From Chloroflexota bacterium (GTDB lineage: Bacteria > Chloroflexota > Limnocylindria > P2-11E), in the NCBI GenBank assembly GCA_005889405.1, contig VBFY01000057.1, positions 81,475-113,698 of the forward strand: a stretch of 32,224 nucleotides of DNA. Reading direction: 5' to 3'. Below, in pieces: positions 15,516 through 29,530 of this stretch (positions are counted from its first letter, which is position 1; every line of letters begins with the position of its first letter). The notes below the pieces were generated by a model, which ran no database searches, had not been told where the DNA came from, and saw nothing but the letters and a program-made list of their open reading frames with translations. Both the position numbers and the translations under genes were made by a program.

Positions 15516-16253
15516 GTGCGTTCGGCGTTCGCCGGAGAGCTCGGTCGCGTCATCGAATACCACGACGTGCTGCCGTCGACCCAGTCGCGCGCGCGCGAGC
15601 TCGCGGCGCAGGGCGCATCGCACGAGATCGTCGTCGCGAACGAGCAGAGCGCGGGCCAAGCAACGCGCGGTCGCGTGTGGCTCGCGCCGAAAGGAACGAG
15701 CCTCCTCGCGTCGTGGATCGTGCGGCCCGCGCCCGTCGCGCCCGCGCTGTTCGCCGCGCTCGCGGGCGTCGCGATCGCGCGCGCTCTCGCAGGGCTGGCG
15801 AGCGCGGATGCCCGCCTAGAATGGCCCAACGACGTACACGTCGGGGGAAGGAAGGTCGCGGGCGCGCTCGCGCATGCGACATCGGACGGCGACGGCGGCG
15901 TGCTCGTGCTCGGTATCGGCATCAACGTGCATCAGCGACGTGACGACTTCCCCGCGGAGCTGCGCGAACGAGCGATCTCGCTCGCGCTGGCCGGCTATCC
16001 CGTCGACCGGCTCGCCCTCCTCGCGCGCGTGACGCGCGAGCTCGACCGTCTCGAGGACGCCGCTGAGCGTGGCGCGGCGCTCGGTGAATGGCGGCGCCGC
16101 TCGACATTCCTGGGCAAGGCCGTCGAGGTGCGCGCCGGCGAGCGCGCGCCGCTCCGGGGCATCGCGACCGCGATCGACGATGATGGCGCCCTGCTCGTGC
16201 GGACGTCGTCTGGAACGGAACGCGTCGTCGCCGGTGAGGTCGCGCTCGCTTGA
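15516..16253 (+). CDS. birA: Biotin--[acetyl-CoA-carboxylase] ligase, short form, with altered biotinoyl-AMP loop
   Basis: A 245-aa group I biotin-protein ligase without the DNA-binding domain of E. coli BirA, so it should not act as a repressor. It activates biotin to biotinoyl-AMP and transfers it to the BCCP lysine. The opening VIEYHDVLPSTQSRARELA, the catalytic region LEWPNDVHVGGRKVAGALA, VLGIGINVH and a C-terminal SH3-like domain (AVEVRAGERAPLRGIATAI) are present. The loop normally reading GRGRRGR reads GQATRGR, replacing three residues that include the equivalent of E. coli Arg118. Start GTG 15516 is the only usable codon in the open region. The overlapping DegV gene and accD/accA downstream fit a biotin and fatty-acid cluster. 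Confidence 0.9.
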   Translation: MRSAFAGELGRVIEYHDVLPSTQSRARELAAQGASHEIVVANEQSAGQATRGRVWLAPKGTSLLASWIVRPAPVAPALFAALAGVAIARALAGLASADARLEWPNDVHVGGRKVAGALAHATSDGDGGVLVLGIGINVHQRRDDFPAELRERAISLALAGYPVDRLALLARVTRELDRLEDAAERGAALGEWRRRSTFLGKAVEVRAGERAPLRGIATAIDDDGALLVRTSSGTERVVAGEVALA

Positions 16254-17113
16254 GCGACCGCTTCGCCATCGTCGTCGACGGGACCGCGTCCTTCTCACCG
16301 GAGGTTCAGCGCGAGTTCGATATCCGCCTGCTTCCGCTGCACGTGGACATCGGGTCGGAGACGTTCACCGCCAACGTCGATCTGACCGCGGATGAGTTCT
16401 ACCGTCGCATCGCCGCGCCCGGAGTGCTCACCGGCACGTCGCAGCCGAACATGGGCGAGTGCCGGGACGTCTACGACGCGATCGTCGCGGAGGGGACGAG
16501 ACAGCTCCTCGTCATGACGATCGCCACGGAGCTCTCGGGCACGTTCTCCGTCGCGAGTACGACTGCTCAGGCCATGCCTGGCGCGAGCATCGAGGTCATC
16601 GACACGCGTTCCTTGGCCGGCGCCATCTCGCTCATCGCGACCGCGTGCGCGCGCCTGCGCCGCGGCGGCAGCTCGTTCGAGCAGACGGTGGCGCTCGCCC
16701 GGAAGCTCTCGGGGAAGGTCGCGATCTACGCCGTCGCGGACACCCTCGAGTACCTGAAACGGTCCGGGCGGGTGAGTGGGGCGCAGGCGCTCTTCGGCTC
16801 CATGCTGAAGATGAAGCCGATCCTCGAGGTCGCGAACGGCGTGGTGCATCCCGCCGATCGCGTGCGCACGCGTGAGAGGGCCGTCCAGCGCATGAAGGAG
16901 CTCGTCGAGGCGCGCGTTCCCGCCGGTGCGCGCATCCACGCCTGTACCCTGCACACCAACGCGCCCGATCGCGCGCGCGAGGTGGCGGACTGGGTGCAGG
17001 AGCGCTACCACTGCGTCGAGCACTGGATCGCCGAAGCCGGGCCGGTCATCGGCGCCCGCGCGGGCCCGGGGGTCGTTGGACTCTGCTGGTACCGTGAGGA
17101 AGACGCGAGATGA
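16250..17113 (+). CDS. DegV family fatty-acid-binding protein
   Basis: A 287-aa DegV/FakB-type protein; family members bind a single fatty acid between two alpha/beta domains and can present it to fatty-acid kinase FakA. Visible signatures are the N-terminal AIVVDGTASF, the TGTSQPNMGECRDVYDAI fatty-acid-headgroup region, MTIATELSGTFSVAS, and YLKRSGRVSGAQALFGSMLKMKPIL. The start is a TTG at 16250 that overlaps the biotin-ligase stop (TTGA) and gives Met-Ser-Asp-Arg. The same TTGA arrangement recurs at 19021. The location between the biotin ligase and the acetyl-CoA carboxylase genes is consistent with a lipid role. No fakA is in the window, so fatty-acid binding is known for the family but not shown here. 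Confidence 0.93.
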   Translation: MSDRFAIVVDGTASFSPEVQREFDIRLLPLHVDIGSETFTANVDLTADEFYRRIAAPGVLTGTSQPNMGECRDVYDAIVAEGTRQLLVMTIATELSGTFSVASTTAQAMPGASIEVIDTRSLAGAISLIATACARLRRGGSSFEQTVALARKLSGKVAIYAVADTLEYLKRSGRVSGAQALFGSMLKMKPILEVANGVVHPADRVRTRERAVQRMKELVEARVPAGARIHACTLHTNAPDRAREVADWVQERYHCVEHWIAEAGPVIGARAGPGVVGLCWYREEDAR

Positions 17114-17198: not shown

Positions 17199-18050
17199 AT
17201 GAGGTTGCGCATGCCGTTCGGCCGGAAGCCGAACGAGTTCCCCTCTCATCTGTGGACGCAGTGTCCCAGCTGCAACGAGATGCTCTTCAACAAGCAGCTC
17301 GCGCGCAATCTCAACGTGTGCACGAAATGCGATCACCACTTCAGGCTCGGCGCGCGTGAGCGCATCGAGCTCCTCGTCGACAAGGGCTCGTTCCACGAGC
17401 ACGATGCGGCGCTGACTTCGGGCGACCCGCTCGGCTTCACGGACAGCAAGCCCTATCCGGAGCGGATCGCCGCGGCGCAGACGAAGAGCGGCGAGAAGGA
17501 CGCGATCATCACGGGCGAGGCGACGATCGGGGACAACCCGGTGATCCTCGCGGTCATGGACTTCGAGTTCATGGGCGGATCGATGGGTACCGTTGTCGGC
17601 GAGAAGATCACGCGCGCCGCAGAGCGCGCCCTCGCGGAGCGCAGGGCGCTCGTCATCGTCTCCGCCTCGGGTGGCGCGCGCATGCAAGAGGGCACGCTCG
17701 CGCTCATGCAGATGGCGAAGATCCTCGGCGCGCTCGCGCGTCTCGACCAGGCGCGCCTTCCCTACGTGAGCGTCATCACCGACCCGACGACGGGCGGCGT
17801 GCTCGCGTCCTACGCGTCGCTCGGCGACATCATCGTCGCCGAGCCGGGCGCGCTCATCCGCTTCTCGGGCGAGCGTGTCACGAGCGGAACGGTGGGCGAG
17901 AAGCTACCGACCGGCTTCGGCAAAGCCGAGTTCCTCCTCGAGCGCGGCTTCCTCGACCAGATCGTGCCGCGGCCGCAGCTGCGCGAGCGGATCGGATTCT
18001 TCCTCACCGCGTTCCGCGCCGCGTCGCAGGACCTGCGCTGGAGCCTCTAG
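17199..18050 (+). CDS. accD: Acetyl-CoA carboxylase carboxyltransferase subunit beta
   Basis: A 283-aa crotonase-fold subunit. With AccA it forms the heterotetramer that moves CO2 from carboxybiotin to acetyl-CoA, giving malonyl-CoA. The N-terminal zinc ribbon is intact (CPSC ... CTKC). The catalytic core shows DFEFMGGSMGTVVGEKI, SASGGARMQEGTLALMQMAK and ITDPTTGGVLASYASLGD. The usual GFAGPRVIEQT segment reads RFSGERVTSGT, a local variation. Two starts are possible: ATG 17199, which overlaps the stop of a 6-codon frame (17182-17202, MAAKPT) in ATGA fashion, or ATG 17211 (MPFGRKPNEF), which has TGAGG upstream. accA follows after 2 nt. A GC-rich hairpin precedes the gene and might influence read-through from degV. 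Confidence 0.95.
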   Translation: MRLRMPFGRKPNEFPSHLWTQCPSCNEMLFNKQLARNLNVCTKCDHHFRLGARERIELLVDKGSFHEHDAALTSGDPLGFTDSKPYPERIAAAQTKSGEKDAIITGEATIGDNPVILAVMDFEFMGGSMGTVVGEKITRAAERALAERRALVIVSASGGARMQEGTLALMQMAKILGALARLDQARLPYVSVITDPTTGGVLASYASLGDIIVAEPGALIRFSGERVTSGTVGEKLPTGFGKAEFLLERGFLDQIVPRPQLRERIGFFLTAFRAASQDLRWSL

Positions 18051-18052
18051 CC

Positions 18053-19024
18053 GTGTCGATGCTCGACCGCATCACGGGAACGAAGCGCACCGTGGAAGCC
18101 AACGGTCACCTCCCGGTCGACGCGAATCTCATCACCGAGCCCGCGCAGCTCGCGTCGCGCGTGAGCGCATGGGAGGCGGTGCAGGCCGCGCGCAACATCC
18201 AGCGCCCGCACACGCTCGACATCGTCGGGCGCGTCTTCGATCGCTTCCACGAGCTGCATGGCGATCGCGGCTTCCGTGACGATCCCGCGATCGTCGGTGG
18301 GATCGCGGATCTCGACGGCCGGCCGGTCGTCATCGTCGGCGAGCAGAAGGGCGCGTCGACCGAGGAGAACATCGCGCGCAACTTCGGGATGCCGCACCCC
18401 GAGGGCTACCGTAAGGCCATGCGCCTCTACCGCCTCGCGGAGAAATTCCATCTGCCGCTCATCACGTTCATCGACACGCCGGGTGCGTACCCGGGCCCCG
18501 AGGGCGAGGAGCGCGGGCAGGCCGAAGCGATCGCGCAGTCGATCCTCCTCATGGCGCGTCTGCAGACGCCGATCGTCGTCGTCATCCTCGGTGAGGGCGG
18601 CTCGGGTGGCGCGCTCGCCCTCGGCGTCGGCGACGTCGTGCTCGCGATGCAGAACGCGATCTACTCTGTCATCTCGCCCGAGGGGTGCGCGGCCATCCTG
18701 TGGCGAAGCCCGGCCGAGGCCGAACGCGCAGCGAAGGCGATGCGTGTGTCGGGGCCCGACCTCCTCGAGCTCGGTGTCGTCGACGCCCTCATCCCCGAGC
18801 CGGCCGGTGGTGCGCACACCGATCACGCCGCGACCGCCGCCGCGATCCGCACCGCGCTCGCGGCTCAGCTCGCGAAGCTCGAGCGTGTGCCGGCGGCCGA
18901 CCTCATGTCGGCGCGCTACGAGCGGTTCCGCGCCTTCGGTGCGCTCGACGAGGCGGGCGCCGCGCCGCCACCGCCACCGCCGGATTCGTGGTGGCGACGC
19001 ATGATGAAACGACCGAGCTCTTGA
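18053..19024 (+). CDS. accA: Acetyl-CoA carboxylase carboxyltransferase subunit alpha
   Basis: A 323-aa partner of AccD. The N-terminal helix-rich part (AWEAVQAARNIQRPHTLDIV) is followed by the crotonase core with FHELHGDRGFRDDPAIVGGI, GMPHPEGYRKAMRLYRLAEKF, FIDTPGAYPGPEGEERGQAE and the oxyanion-region segment GEGGSGGALALGVGD. The C-terminal tail has a run of prolines (APPPPPPDSW) and basic residues not typical of the E. coli protein. GTG 18053 lies 2 nt after accD, so the two are coupled, which suits an alpha2beta2 complex. The stop overlaps a TTG start of the BCCP-like gene (TTGA). Confidence 0.96.
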   Translation: MSMLDRITGTKRTVEANGHLPVDANLITEPAQLASRVSAWEAVQAARNIQRPHTLDIVGRVFDRFHELHGDRGFRDDPAIVGGIADLDGRPVVIVGEQKGASTEENIARNFGMPHPEGYRKAMRLYRLAEKFHLPLITFIDTPGAYPGPEGEERGQAEAIAQSILLMARLQTPIVVVILGEGGSGGALALGVGDVVLAMQNAIYSVISPEGCAAILWRSPAEAERAAKAMRVSGPDLLELGVVDALIPEPAGGAHTDHAATAAAIRTALAAQLAKLERVPAADLMSARYERFRAFGALDEAGAAPPPPPPDSWWRRMMKRPSS

Positions 19025-19443
19025 GCGACACCGACCACGTCCTGGGCCTCCTCGACGACCTCATGCGTCTCGCCGACGGCTCACCAGCGGTGACGATCGA
19101 GGTCGAGGCCGACAGCTTCGCCGTTTCCGTAACGAGGCGTGGCGCCGCGCGGCCCGACGCGAGCCTCGCGACGACCGAGCGCCCCGCGGTCGCGGGCGAC
19201 GCGCAGCCCACACGCCAGCCGACGCAGCGCGTGCACGCGACGACGGTCGGCATCTTCAGCCCATCGAAGGAGTGGCATGCCGGCGACGCGGTGTCGCGCG
19301 GGGACATCCTCGGTGGGATCAAGTCGCTCGGCCAGGTCGCGAAGATCGTCGCTCCCGCCGATGGCGAGGTCCGTGAGGTGCTGGTCGCCGGCGGTGCGCC
19401 GGTGGAATACGGCCAGCCGCTCCTCGTGATCACGCTGCACTGA
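19021..19443 (+). CDS. BCCP-like protein lacking the biotinyl lysine (BADC-like)
   Basis: A 140-aa paralogue of AccB. The N-terminal part (LLDDLMRLADG ... VTIEVEADSFAVSVTRR) matches the BCCP N-terminal helix-strand module. A variable linker (about residues 41-69) follows, then a lipoyl/biotinyl-like beta domain (71-140). Ungapped alignment with the genuine BCCP encoded at 29072 places GDILGGIKSLGQVAKI over GDVIALIEAMKLFNEI: the EAMKL motif becomes KSLGQ, and the biotin-accepting lysine is Gly104. The thumb segment is also shortened. The protein therefore should not carry biotin. Start TTG 19021 overlaps the accA stop, and its own stop overlaps the next ATG. Plant BADC proteins have this same design and modulate acetyl-CoA carboxylase by replacing BCCP in the complex; such a role here is inference. 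Confidence 0.85.
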   Translation: MSDTDHVLGLLDDLMRLADGSPAVTIEVEADSFAVSVTRRGAARPDASLATTERPAVAGDAQPTRQPTQRVHATTVGIFSPSKEWHAGDAVSRGDILGGIKSLGQVAKIVAPADGEVREVLVAGGAPVEYGQPLLVITLH

Positions 19444-19718
19444 TGGCCACGCGAAAGATCGATATCTCCTACAGCGAATCCGGACACGGCTGGGTCGCGC
19501 GCGTGACGACGACGGCGCCGAGAAAGACGTCGCATGTCGTGCGCGTCTCTCGCGCGGAGCTCGAGCGCTACGGCGGCGGCGACGTGCATGAGCTGCTGCG
19601 CCGCTCGTTCGAATTCCTGCTCGATCGCGAGGCGAACACGTCGATCCTGCCGGAGTTCGACCTCGGCACGATCGAGCGCTACTTCCCGGAGTACCGGGCG
19701 GCGATGAAGCGCAGCTAG
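19443..19718 (+). CDS. Uncharacterised 91-aa protein in the acc/fab operon
   Basis: A small, probably cytoplasmic protein, coupled by TGATG to the biotin-less BCCP gene and followed 17 nt later by fabD. The N-terminal half forms a likely beta-hairpin (KIDISYSESGHGWVARVTT ... SHVVRVSRAELERYG). The C-terminal half is a helix plus a distinctive motif FEFLLDREANTSILPEFDL followed by IERYFPEY. No metal site, membrane segment or catalytic motif is visible. I recall similar short proteins annotated as hypothetical in other bacteria but know no function. The position inside an acetyl-CoA carboxylase and fatty-acid operon suggests a structural or regulatory accessory, or a passenger. Confidence 0.82.
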   Translation: MATRKIDISYSESGHGWVARVTTTAPRKTSHVVRVSRAELERYGGGDVHELLRRSFEFLLDREANTSILPEFDLGTIERYFPEYRAAMKRS

Positions 19719-19735: not shown

Positions 19736-20662
19736 ATGGGGAGCGGTGTCGCGTGGCTCTTCCCCGGTCAGGGTTCGCAGATCGTGGGCATGGGCCGCGA
19801 CCTCGCTGAGCATCATCCGAGCGCCGCGCGCGCATTCGAGGAAGCCGGCGACGCGCTCGGCCTCGATCTGCGCGCGTTGTGCTGGAACGGACCGCAGAGC
19901 GACCTCGATCGCACCGCGAACACGCAGCCGGCGCTCCTCACCGCGTCCATCGCGGCGCTCCGCGCAGCGGAGGAAGCAGCCGGTGGTCTCGGCGAGCCCG
20001 TTGTCGTGATGGGTCACTCGCTTGGTGAGTTCACGGCGCTCGTCGCCGCGGGCGCGCTGCCGCTCGCGGCCGCGGTCGTGCTGGTGCGTCGCCGCGGCGA
20101 GCTCATGCAGGACGCCGATCCGTCCGGCGGCATGCTTGCCGTCATCGGTCTCGATGCCGACGCCATCGCGAAGGCGATCGCCGAGACCGGCCTCGTCGTG
20201 GCGAACGACAACGCGCCCGGACAGGTCGTCGTCTCCGGCCCGAAGGCCGGCTTCGAGCGGGCGACCACCGCACTGAAGGACGCCGGCGCGAAACGCGTGA
20301 TCCAGCTGCGCACGTCGGCGGCCTTCCATTCGCCCGCGATGCGTCCGGTCGGACCGGAGCTTGCCAAAGCGATCGCGGCGACGCCGTTCGCGACGCTCCG
20401 ATACCCGGTCGTCGCCAACGTCGATGCACAGGTGCACGAACATGCGGCGGATTTCGCGTCATTGCTGGAGAAACAGGTGTGGTCTCCGGTACAGTGGGTC
20501 GCCTGCGTGCGGCGTGCTCGAGGGGAGGGCGCGACCGCATTCGTCGAGTTCGGTCCCGGCAATGTCCTCACCGGACTTGCGAAACGGATCCTCCCCGATG
20601 CGCGGACCGCGAACGTGTCTGACGTGAAGACACTCGAGGAGGCACTCACTGTCCTTCGATAA
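19736..20662 (+). CDS. fabD: Malonyl-CoA:ACP transacylase
   Basis: A 308-aa cytoplasmic acyltransferase that loads malonate onto acyl carrier protein for chain extension. The N-terminal FPGQGSQIVGMG holds the oxyanion Gln. The nucleophile elbow is MGHSLGEF (Ser95), the catalytic His lies in AAFHSPAM, and the C-terminal FVEFGPGNVLTGLAKRI is typical of FabD. Length matches the family. The start is ATG 19736. The 3' end overlaps the proposed CTG start of accC by 14 nt, and the GAGGAGG in its final codons acts as that gene's SD. No acpP, fabG or fabH gene is in the window, so those must lie elsewhere. Confidence 0.96.
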   Translation: MGSGVAWLFPGQGSQIVGMGRDLAEHHPSAARAFEEAGDALGLDLRALCWNGPQSDLDRTANTQPALLTASIAALRAAEEAAGGLGEPVVVMGHSLGEFTALVAAGALPLAAAVVLVRRRGELMQDADPSGGMLAVIGLDADAIAKAIAETGLVVANDNAPGQVVVSGPKAGFERATTALKDAGAKRVIQLRTSAAFHSPAMRPVGPELAKAIAATPFATLRYPVVANVDAQVHEHAADFASLLEKQVWSPVQWVACVRRARGEGATAFVEFGPGNVLTGLAKRILPDARTANVSDVKTLEEALTVLR

Positions 20663-22007
20663 GATCCTCATCGCCAATCGGGGCGAGATCGCACTGCGCG
20701 TCATCCGCGCGTGTCGCGAGCTCGGTATCCAGACCGTGCTCGTCTACAGCGAGGCGGACGCGCACAGCCTGCCGGTGCACCTCGCCGACGAAGCGATCTG
20801 TATCGGCCCCGCGTCTTCGCGCGAGAGCTATCTCAACATCCCGTCGATCATGTCGGCTGCGCTCATCAGCGGTGCGCAGGCGATCCATCCCGGGTATGGG
20901 TTCCTGGCGGAGAACGCCGACTTCGCCGAAGTCTGCAAGGAGCATGGGCTCGTCTTCATCGGTCCGCCACCTGAGATCCTCCGGCGCTTCCACGACAAGG
21001 TCGCGACGCGCGTCGCGATGAAGACGCTCGGTCTGCCGGTGATCCCGGGTTCGGATGGTCCGGTGAAGACCATGGCCGAGGGGCTGCGAATCGGCGAGGC
21101 TGTCGGCTATCCGGTGATGCTGAAGGCGCGCTCCGGCGGTGGCGGTCGCGGCATGCGCAAGGTGAGCGCTCCACAGGAGCTCCAGCGTCTCTGGGACCAG
21201 GCGAGCTCCGAGGCCAAGGCGTCGTTCGGTGACGCGGGCCTTTACGTCGAGCGCTGTCTCGAGGGTGTGCGTCACGTCGAAACCCAGATCGCCGTCGACG
21301 AGTACGGGAGCGGCATCTGCCTGGGAGAGCGCGAGTGCTCGATCCAGCGCCGCAATCAGAAGATGATCGAAGAGGCGCCGTCCGCATCGATCAGCGAGGA
21401 GCTGCGCCAGGAGATCGCGCGGCGCGCGGTCGACGCCGCGGTCCGGTGCGGCTATCGCAACGTCGGCACCTTCGAGTTCCTCGTCGACGCGCGCGGCGAG
21501 TTCTACTTCATCGAAGTGAACTCGCGGATCCAGGTCGAGCACACCGTGACCGAGATGACCACCGGCATCGATCTCGTGAAGGAGCAGATCGCGCTCGCGT
21601 CGGGGCAGCCGTTGTCTTTCAGCGAGGAACAGATCTGGGTCAGCGGGCACGCGATCGAGTGCCGCATCAACGCGGAGGACAGCGAGCAGAACTTCGCGCC
21701 GTCGACCGGCGTGCTCACGACCTGGCTCACGCCCGGCGGGCCCGGGATCCGCATCGATACGCACTGCTTCCAGGGCTACGAGGTGCCGCCCTACTACGAC
21801 TCATTGCTCGCGAAGGTCATCGCCTGGGGCCGCGACCGCGCCGAGGCCGTCACGCGGATGCAGCGAGCGCTCGACGAATTCACGATCGTCGGCGTGACGA
21901 CGAACATTCCGGCGCACAAGAAGATCCTCGCGAGCGAGCTCTTCCGCTCGGGTCAGGTGACGACACACCTCATCGACACCGTCGGAGTCGACGCGCTGAG
22001 CACATAG
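20649..22007 (+). CDS. accC: Biotin carboxylase subunit of acetyl-CoA carboxylase (probable CTG start)
   Basis: A 452-aa ATP-grasp enzyme that carboxylates the biotin on BCCP using ATP and bicarbonate. The conserved N-terminus SFDKILIANRGEIALRVIRA is in frame only if translation begins at CTG 20649. This codon follows GGAGG at 20638-20642 with a 6-nt gap. The first conventional start (GTG 20736) would delete 29 conserved residues of the N-terminal domain. With the CTG start, the ATP-binding Lys falls at 159 (VMLKARSGGGGRGM), as in E. coli AccC, and the active-site segment EVNSRIQVEHT at 289-299. Length equals that of E. coli AccC within a few residues. The 5' end overlaps fabD, and fabZ follows after 19 nt with its own promoter-like box. 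Confidence 0.95.
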   Translation: MSFDKILIANRGEIALRVIRACRELGIQTVLVYSEADAHSLPVHLADEAICIGPASSRESYLNIPSIMSAALISGAQAIHPGYGFLAENADFAEVCKEHGLVFIGPPPEILRRFHDKVATRVAMKTLGLPVIPGSDGPVKTMAEGLRIGEAVGYPVMLKARSGGGGRGMRKVSAPQELQRLWDQASSEAKASFGDAGLYVERCLEGVRHVETQIAVDEYGSGICLGERECSIQRRNQKMIEEAPSASISEELRQEIARRAVDAAVRCGYRNVGTFEFLVDARGEFYFIEVNSRIQVEHTVTEMTTGIDLVKEQIALASGQPLSFSEEQIWVSGHAIECRINAEDSEQNFAPSTGVLTTWLTPGGPGIRIDTHCFQGYEVPPYYDSLLAKVIAWGRDRAEAVTRMQRALDEFTIVGVTTNIPAHKKILASELFRSGQVTTHLIDTVGVDALST

Positions 22008-24878: not shown

Positions 24879-27068
24879 GTGCAGATACGTCTTCATAACA
24901 CGCTGACGCGGCGCGTGGAGCCGGTCGTGCCGGCTCACGCGGGCGAGATCCGCATGTACACCTGCGGACCCACCGTCTACCGACCCGTCCACGTCGGCAA
25001 TCTCCGCTCGTATCTGCTCGCCGACTGGCTCCGGCGCACCTTCGAGCTGTTCGGCCACCACGTCGTGTCCGTGAAGAACATCACCGATGTCGGGCACATG
25101 CGGCAGGACGCGGTCGACCGGGGCGAGGACAAGGTCATCGCCGCGGCGCTCGCGGAGGGAAAAACGCCGATGCAGATCGCGGAGTTCTACGAGGCGGCGT
25201 TCCGCGAGGATGAGCGCAAGCTCGGCATCCTCCCCGCGACGGTGTATCCGCGCGCGACCGCTCACGTCGGCGAGATGATCGCGCTGATCGAGCGCCTGCT
25301 CGCACGCGGTCTCGCGTACGTCGTGGACGGGACCGTCTATTACGCGGTGAAGCGATTCGCGAGTTACGGCCGCCTGTCGGGGAACGTCGGCGAAGCGCTG
25401 CGGCAGGGCGTCCGGTCGGAGGTCGACCCGAACAAACGGAACGCCGCGGACTTCGCCCTCTGGAAGCGCGCGGAGCCGGGGCGGAGCGCGCTGGTGTGGG
25501 ACTCGCCCTGGGGATCCGGCTTTCCCGGCTGGCACATCGAGTGTTCGGCGATGAGCACCAAGTACCTCGGCGAGCGGTTCGACGTGCATACCGGTGGCGT
25601 GGACAACATCTTCCCGCATCACGAGGACGAGATCGCGCAGTCGGAAGGAGCGCTGGGACACCCCGTCGTGGGTACGTGGGTGCACGGGCAGCATCTGCTC
25701 GCCGATGGCGTGAAGATGGCGAAGTCCGCGCGCAACACGCTCGAGGTCCACGAGATCGAGGAGCTCGGTCTCGATCCGCTGGCCTTCCGTTACCAGTGTC
25801 TCCTCACGCATTACCGCACGCGCATGCACTTCAGCGTCGCCGCGCTGCGCCAAGCTGCTGAGGGCCTCGACCACCTCCGCCAGCGCGTCCGCGTCCTGGC
25901 CCAGCTTTCTGGCGACAAGACAACGCCGCCGCGTCTCCCGGAGCGCGTCCGCGTCGCGTTCGGGTCCGTCGCCCTCGACCGCTGGAACGAGCTCCTTCGC
26001 GAGCGGCTCGCCGACGACCTCGACCTCCCCGGAGCGCTCGCGCTCGTGCAGGCGTGCGTCACCGACGCCGACATCCCGCCGTCGGTGCGCCTCCAGTTCG
26101 TCCACGACGCCGATGTGGTCCTCGGTCTCGATCTCGACGCCGTCGTGCGCGAGCGCACCGATGCGCCACCGGTGGTCCTCGAGGCCGTCGCCGGCCATGA
26201 GCTGGCACGTGCGACGCGTGATTACGACGCGGCGGATCGCCTCCGCGCGAAATTCGACGGTGTGCGGGTCGACGATCGTGCGAGCGGTGCGCTTGTCGCG
26301 CGCGCTGATCGGCGGCTCGCGCCGCGTCCGCGCCGGACCATCGCGTCGGCGCGTGAGCTTCGGGACCGGCGCGCCAAGCGCGCGGTCCGGTCATGGTCGG
26401 TCTGCGTGCTCGCGCGGGAGTGGCCGGACGACGTCGCACGCTGCGTGCGCAGCGTCCTTCGTTTCATTCCGGCCGACGGCGAGGTCCTCGTCCTCGATCA
26501 GGGATCGAGCGAAGATGCGAAGCGCCGTCTCGACGAGCTCGCCGCGCGCGAGCCCCGCGTGCTCGTCCACCACGCGGACCGCGACCTCGGTGAGGGCGCG
26601 GGTCGGAGCGCGTTGTTGCGCGTCGCGCGCGGGCGATCGGTGCTCGAGCTCGATCCGTCCGTCGAGATCACCGGGCCGCTCTTCACGGTGCTCGAGGAGG
26701 CGCTCGGCGATGGCGCGGGCATCGTGGGACCGTGGGGTCTGCGGACGGTCGACTTCAAGCATTTCGATGAGGTGACCGCTGGCGAGTGCGACGCGATACA
26801 GGGGTACTGCCAGGCCGCCCGCCGCGACATCCTTCTCGCGATCGGCGGCTTCGACGAGCGCTACCGCTTCTATCGGAACCTCGACATCGCGGTGTCGTCC
26901 GCGGTCCGAGAGCTCGGTCTGCGCGCGCTCGCGATCGGGGCCGATCGCGTGACGCGGCACGAGCACCGCGCCTGGGAGGCCCTCTCCGACGAGGAGCGCG
27001 AGAAGCGCAGCCGCAAGAACTACGACCGCATGTACAAGCGGTTCCACCGAACGGCGGTGTCGGCATGA
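24879..27068 (+). CDS. cysS: Cysteinyl-tRNA synthetase fused to a C-terminal GT2-like glycosyltransferase domain
   Basis: A 729-aa protein in one uninterrupted frame. Residues 1-476 are a full class I CysRS: zinc ligands Cys29 (YTCGPTVY), Cys222 (HIECSAMS) and the FPHHEDE histidine/glutamate (247-249); HIGH-type PVHVGN at 37-41; KMAKS at 279-283; and the usual C-terminal anticodon domain ending near DGVRVDDRASG. A basic linker (477-504) leads to a ~225-aa domain with GT-A family-2 features: WSVCVLAREWPDDVARCVRS, VLVLDQGSSED (equivalent to VDNGSTD), an acidic LELDPSVE where DXD is expected, and IGGFDERYRFYRNLDIAV. The DXD-like site is degenerate, so catalysis is uncertain. The usual CysRS is about 460 aa. 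GTG start has GGGGAGG upstream. The stop overlaps the next gene (ATGA). Confidence 0.93.
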   Translation: MQIRLHNTLTRRVEPVVPAHAGEIRMYTCGPTVYRPVHVGNLRSYLLADWLRRTFELFGHHVVSVKNITDVGHMRQDAVDRGEDKVIAAALAEGKTPMQIAEFYEAAFREDERKLGILPATVYPRATAHVGEMIALIERLLARGLAYVVDGTVYYAVKRFASYGRLSGNVGEALRQGVRSEVDPNKRNAADFALWKRAEPGRSALVWDSPWGSGFPGWHIECSAMSTKYLGERFDVHTGGVDNIFPHHEDEIAQSEGALGHPVVGTWVHGQHLLADGVKMAKSARNTLEVHEIEELGLDPLAFRYQCLLTHYRTRMHFSVAALRQAAEGLDHLRQRVRVLAQLSGDKTTPPRLPERVRVAFGSVALDRWNELLRERLADDLDLPGALALVQACVTDADIPPSVRLQFVHDADVVLGLDLDAVVRERTDAPPVVLEAVAGHELARATRDYDAADRLRAKFDGVRVDDRASGALVARADRRLAPRPRRTIASARELRDRRAKRAVRSWSVCVLAREWPDDVARCVRSVLRFIPADGEVLVLDQGSSEDAKRRLDELAAREPRVLVHHADRDLGEGAGRSALLRVARGRSVLELDPSVEITGPLFTVLEEALGDGAGIVGPWGLRTVDFKHFDEVTAGECDAIQGYCQAARRDILLAIGGFDERYRFYRNLDIAVSSAVRELGLRALAIGADRVTRHEHRAWEALSDEEREKRSRKNYDRMYKRFHRTAVSA

Positions 27069-29071: not shown

Positions 29072-29530
29072 GTGGCCGACCCGAAGAAGCTCCGAGCCGA
29101 CGCGAACGCTCTCGTGACCGAGCTCCTGCAGCGGCTCGGCGCGGAAGACGTGCAGCAGCTCGAGATCCGCCGCGGCGGCCTGCGCGTGAAGGTGAGCAAG
29201 AATGGCTCACCGCCGGCGGCGTCGACCGCGCCCGCGCCGGCGAAACCCGGCGTCACCGTCACCGGACCGGACCAGCCGGCCCCGAGCGACCTCCCGACGG
29301 TGAACGCGCCGCTCACCGGCGTCTTCTACCGCTCGCCGACACCGCAGGCGCCGCCGTTCGTGCAGATCGGCGTGATCGTCAACACGGGCGACGTCATCGC
29401 GCTTATCGAGGCGATGAAGCTTTTCAACGAGATCCGCTCGACCGCCGGCGGAAAGGTGAAACGCATCTTCGCGGAGAACGGACAGCTCGTTCGCGCACAC
29501 CAGCCGCTTCTCGAGCTCGAGCCGATCTGA
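29072..29530 (+). CDS. accB: Biotin carboxyl carrier protein of acetyl-CoA carboxylase
   Basis: A 152-aa carrier that moves carboxybiotin between biotin carboxylase and the carboxyltransferase. The N-terminal module (ALVTELLQRLGAEDVQQLEI ... LRVKVSK) is followed by an Ala/Pro-rich flexible linker (about 47-75). The biotinyl domain comes next, with the thumb-like VFYRSPTPQAPPFVQIG and the biotinylation motif IEAMKLFNEI (Lys116). It is the only protein in the window with an intact biotin site; compare the biotin-less paralogue at 19021. GTG 29072 lies 3 nt after fabF. The stop overlaps the next ATG (TGATG). Confidence 0.97.
   Translation: MADPKKLRADANALVTELLQRLGAEDVQQLEIRRGGLRVKVSKNGSPPAASTAPAPAKPGVTVTGPDQPAPSDLPTVNAPLTGVFYRSPTPQAPPFVQIGVIVNTGDVIALIEAMKLFNEIRSTAGGKVKRIFAENGQLVRAHQPLLELEPI

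Follow-up and report, generated by a model that had tools for sequence, protein, structure and literature searches.

A conserved lysine-less BCCP paralogue in the acetyl-CoA carboxylase operon of a soil Chloroflexota bacterium: a putative bacterial counterpart of plant BADC

A paralogue of the biotin carboxyl carrier protein (BCCP) that has no biotinyl lysine is encoded within the acetyl-CoA carboxylase (ACC) operon of a soil Chloroflexota bacterium, and by analogy it looks like a bacterial counterpart of the assembly/regulatory subunits known from plants as BADC. The gene occupies positions 19021..19443 of the window, the 32,224-nucleotide stretch of contig VBFY01000057.1 that was analysed; it, birA, the acc genes, fabD, and the 91-aa ORF described below are on the plus strand. 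The most probable interpretation, to which we would assign a probability of roughly 0.6, is that this Lys-less BCCP is a non-biotinylated paralogue serving as a non-catalytic subunit of the heteromeric ACC of its host, where it would help AccC and BCCP to assemble in the manner of plant BADC. ACC supplies fatty acid synthesis with its committed precursor and is both a drug target and an engineering target.

Judged by its sequence, the 140-residue product is a true BCCP homologue. It matched the Pfam Biotin_lipoyl family (PF00364) with 29.4 bits, over the cut-off of 22.1, and the BCCP family TIGR00531 with 42.3 bits; the latter score is far below the equivalog cut-off of 115.2, under which the genuine BCCP of the same genome, scoring 93, likewise falls. 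Identity to that genuine BCCP is 29% (BLASTP E = 8e-7). The class-family profile matched full-length E. coli BCCP (4hr7_B, residues 28-176) at E = 3.1e-23, N-terminal hairpin included, in agreement with the sequence-only reading, which had described a BCCP paralogue with both modules. In the AlphaFold2 model of the monomer, residues 71-140 (19231..19440) adopt a biotinyl-domain fold at pLDDT 96-98, and Foldseek returned the E. coli biotinyl domain 1bdo as the top PDB match (32% identity, same fold), with the E. coli BC-BCCP complex and Arabidopsis BCCP1 among the further matches. A helix (residues 3-18) and a beta-hairpin (25-30/33-38), the equivalent of the BCCP N-terminal hairpin, were predicted with low confidence (pLDDT 52-67) at 19027..19134; the hairpin pattern is conserved in the class alignment. 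The model indicates that the BCCP architecture of N-terminal helix and hairpin, linker, and biotinyl fold is retained. Fold, N-terminal helix/hairpin, and linker are shared with E. coli AccB/BCCP (TIGR00531), which differs in having the biotin lysine, an EAMKM motif, and a thumb that is longer by six residues.

What has been lost is the attachment site. Where the genuine BCCP of the same genome (accB, 29072..29530, motif EAMKLFNE) reads VIALIEAMKLFNEI, the Lys-less BCCP reads ILGGIKSLGQVAKI; the site aligned without gaps and, as previously claimed, Gly104 (codon 19330..19332) stands at the place of the biotinyl lysine. KSLGQ replaces the AMKL biotinylation motif, lysine included, and the thumb, already described as shortened, lacks six residues relative to the genuine BCCP. 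In the AlphaFold2 model, strands 96-102 and 105-110 join at L103-G104, leaving the attachment hairpin closed at its tip by Leu-Gly. At the canonical site such a protein cannot take up biotin. It might still act as a carrier if biotin, lipoate, or another group were attached elsewhere, or if a ligand were bound non-covalently, and the strong conservation of the fold and of a VEYGQ segment in the class alignment is in keeping with such a role. We consider this very improbable: the EAMKL recognition motif is wholly lost, and no conserved lysine was found elsewhere in the biotinyl domain among 120 distinct class sequences. K101, which had been named as a possible alternative acceptor, is excluded, being confined to the closest relatives and replaced by Gln or another residue beyond them.

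A strong orthologue was found in 25 of the 29 genomes of the host order, with Gly at the site in every one. Within the host class, 143 of 151 genomes yielded a match, and about 128 of the 151 (an approximate count from the listing) a match above 95 bits; the genuine BCCPs listed in the same search reached no more than about 78 bits. Gly occupies the lysine column in 120/120 distinct class orthologues and Lys in none; the pattern is x-L-G-x where carriers have Met-Lys. The lone K in the census (L161) comes from a locus of another class and is hence no class orthologue. The gene has been retained by most members of a class family with genomes of about 1.1 Mb. Whole-protein dN/dS was 0.07-0.27; of nine pairs compared over the biotinyl part, eight gave 0.03-0.08 and one, L010/L011, gave 0.24. 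The Lys-less BCCP is under purifying selection. Decay in a single strain, a concern raised along with the original observation, is excluded as the origin of the lysine loss by the class census together with these ratios. A relic in the wider sense, a former BCCP drifting without function while a second BCCP does the chemistry, would account for the missing lysine but is hardly credible in view of the mostly low dN/dS of the domain, the class-wide presence of the gene, its conserved place in the operon, and its stop/start overlap. No match to the Lys-less BCCP was found in the viral contigs searched.

Upstream of the operon lies a birA-type biotin protein ligase gene (15516..16253; PF03099, PF02237), which is kept upstream in class loci. 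The operon continues with accD (17199..18050; TIGR00515, 365 bits), accA (18053..19024; PRK05724, 398 bits), the Lys-less gene, a 91-aa ORF (19443..19718), fabD (19736..20662; named from its own sequence and matched in syntenic loci), and accC, which encodes the biotin carboxylase (20649..22007; TIGR00514, 647 bits, and Pfam domains) without a fused BCCP domain. The 91-aa ORF overlaps the Lys-less gene, its start falling on the stop of the latter; no family match to this ORF was found in Pfam or NCBIfam. The start of accC is 1.2 kb downstream of the Lys-less gene, the distance originally given, and is apparently a CTG: conserved SFDKILIANRGEIALRVIR (20649-20735) precedes the first ATG/GTG/TTG at 20736. 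In the host order, a DegV-family gene (16250-17113; PF02645) is located between birA and accD. Fatty acid binding is a known property of DegV proteins, and this gene may therefore share a pathway with the acc operon.

The TTG start of the Lys-less gene overlaps the stop codon of accA, bearing out the proposed coupling, and a four-base NTGA stop/start overlap between the two genes recurred in 17 of the 18 order loci read. The operon position proved to be conserved as well: accA is directly upstream in 72 of 73 class loci, the remaining locus being a contig end, and the downstream neighbour in the 73 loci is accC (43), a small ORF of the 91-aa type (15), or fabD (10). Longer class stretches read birA-(degV)-accD-accA-x-(fabD)-accC-fabZ ... 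fabF-accB, where x is the Lys-less gene, and in every class operon read that far fabF is followed by a separate biotinylatable BCCP with the motif EAMKLFNE. The host genome has a biotinylatable accB alongside separate accA, accC, and accD (a heteromeric ACC), as do class operons with enough contig. Its five Biotin_lipoyl matches are the Lys-less gene, accB, two of lipoyl type, and an EAMKME domain in another ORF. A location directly after accA, with this overlap in nearly all of the order loci read, couples the gene to accA and not to accC, and might be taken to mean that the Lys-less BCCP binds AccA/AccD, for example near the biotin site, and links the carboxyltransferase (CT) to the BC part. 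We regard this as unlikely, given that the conserved N-terminal hairpin is of the BC type and that the Lys-less copies of Armatimonadota and of the phylum of genome G421, described below, are mostly beside accC.

In plants, BADC aids BC-BCCP assembly, although in vivo studies suggested an inhibitor; non-catalytic subunits of the BADC type have been described as unique to plant ACC (PMC11926652). A bacterial decoy of the inhibitory kind, a negative regulator that takes up the sites at which BCCP binds AccC or CT and reduces activity in a dose-dependent way, would suit the BCCP architecture of the Lys-less protein and its place in the same operon, as well as the in vivo descriptions of plant BADCs as inhibitors (PMC11926652). 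We nevertheless judge it improbable, if worth keeping in mind: the overlap with the accA stop hints at production in constant proportion and not at a dose that varies, and retention in streamlined genomes suits a constitutive part. The sequence-only reading had proposed a BADC-type regulator. Its first element, a BCCP that is conserved in the operon without its lysine, stands, but "regulator" is narrower than the evidence; because of the conservation, an obligatory structural (assembly) subunit fits better.

The likeness to plant BADC is one of kind. Both are low-identity BCCP homologues with the biotinyl fold (about 25-30% identity is typical of BADC, and the Lys-less protein shares 29% with the genuine BCCP of its host) that have lost the biotin motif and exist alongside a biotinylated BCCP. 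Arabidopsis BCCPL-2 we take to be one of the BADC proteins. Its Brassica orthologues have CYIEQLGGQFPIE where BCCP has CIIEAMKLMNEIE (PMC9578262), which, with the comparison confined to the published motif, is the same change of MK to LG as in the Lys-less BCCP. The shared Leu-Gly may be inherited from a common ancestor, or both lineages may have converged on a sequence well suited to the turn. Plant BADC is the product of a nuclear gene and is targeted to the plastid, whereas the Lys-less BCCP is encoded in a bacterial operon, beside accA, and has no transit peptide; interaction with ACC and an effect on it have been shown for plant BADC only. Because the plant/plastid feature is missing and binding is putative, we call the Lys-less BCCP BADC-like and not a member of BADC. 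The earlier remark that no described bacterial counterpart of plant BADC is known agrees with our finding none in the open-access library searched, though one elsewhere is possible. If our interpretation is correct, a class-wide bacterial counterpart encoded in an operon that could be transferred to E. coli would allow the disputed question of whether BADC is glue or brake to be addressed by reconstitution in a simple system.

We infer a structural partner on AccC because a hairpin-type N-terminus and the biotinyl fold have been kept, the attachment lysine is absent, and the start overlaps the accA stop. The assembly envisaged is as follows: on AccC, the N-terminal hairpin of the Lys-less BCCP would associate with those of the genuine BCCP, the BC-BCCP subcomplex would then consist of two carrier-like proteins, one active and one structural, and the Lys-less BCCP would stabilise, or set the amount of, the active ACC complex, as plant BADC does. 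A related arrangement comes from the same phylum. In Chloroflexus aurantiacus BC1, four BCCP N-terminal hairpins, equivalent to that of the Lys-less BCCP, assemble into a barrel by which two BC dimers are held together; without the hairpin, BC1 falls to dimers and its activity is lower (PMC11077971). BC1 is a fused BC-BCCP and is biotinylated, whereas the Lys-less BCCP is a separate protein and the biotin lysine is absent. For the terms looked up, no mention of a Lys-less BCCP was found in that paper (PMC11077971). It cites the E. coli BC-BCCP complex as being held by biotinyl cores and not by hairpins (PMC11077971), and the mode of assembly on AccC may therefore differ from a hairpin barrel.

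Alignments indicate that the lysine has been lost in a similar way in two or more bacterial groups besides the host class. Both copies were read in 20 genomes of Armatimonadota. Lys is present in the second BCCP of all 20 but in the first BCCP of only 7, the other 13 having Gly, Asp, Arg, or Thr there; in most of these genomes the first copy adjoins accC. Where a Lys-less BCCP was the best match (13 Armatimonadota genomes), accC adjoins it in 11, and the second BCCP has Lys. The phylum of G421 has accC-linked BCCPs with Gly, Asp, or Lys at the site and a second BCCP of the type EAMK[LM]FNE in the same genomes. As in the host, then, the lysine is gone and a second, Lys-bearing BCCP is present, mostly with accC beside the Lys-less copy; the replacing residues vary in these phyla (Gly, Asp, Arg, Thr), as opposed to Gly throughout the host class. 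Among the Lys-less, accC-linked BCCPs of the two phyla (loci L303-L310 and L333-L362), some retain an otherwise almost unchanged motif (RAMGLMNEV). When the accC-linked copies of both phyla were placed in one tree, about five changes at the lysine site were needed (range across bootstraps 4-6), of which well-supported branches force at least 2, and the losses in Armatimonadota and in the phylum of G421 are apparently separate. The repeated losses in Armatimonadota provide natural pairs of genomes with one versus two possible carriers.

A history consistent with these patterns would run as follows: an old duplication gave rise to two BCCPs, one linked to accC and the other of the EAMK[LV]FNE type; the latter kept its biotin, and the accC-linked copy lost its lysine, repeatedly across phyla. 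We put forward with slightly less than even confidence the broader proposal that several bacterial phyla build ACC from two BCCPs, one biotinylated and one an obligatory, structural, Lys-less subunit, and that this is a general, convergent design of repeated origin, in plants (Leu-Gly) as well.

In other Chloroflexota classes the annotated loci differ. Lys-less relatives there (Asn or Gly at the site; L163-L171) adjoin pepP/efp and xseA, not acc genes, and no accC was found beside them in these loci. In many other bacteria, such surroundings hold accB-accC. A role outside ACC is possible in most of these classes, since the Lys-less relative is not beside acc genes. In a 62-row tree, in which the deep branching order is poorly supported and L083/L084 sit on long branches, the Lys-bearing BCCPs formed mostly one group (90/94), with the Lys-less L100 inside it and the Lys-bearing L077 outside. 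The order proteins form a clade (100/99), as do the class proteins (97/91). The AU test did not reject a single clade of order and class (p = 0.25), which also lacked support, and the same holds for a single group of all Chloroflexota Lys-less proteins (p = 0.12); these results are compatible with a single origin of these proteins within Chloroflexota and with multiple origins.

Elsewhere in the window, between accC and accB, an unusual fusion was observed: the ORF for cysteinyl-tRNA synthetase (24879-27068; 729 aa) runs into a glycosyltransferase family 2 domain at residues 507-617 (PF00535, 36.5 bits).
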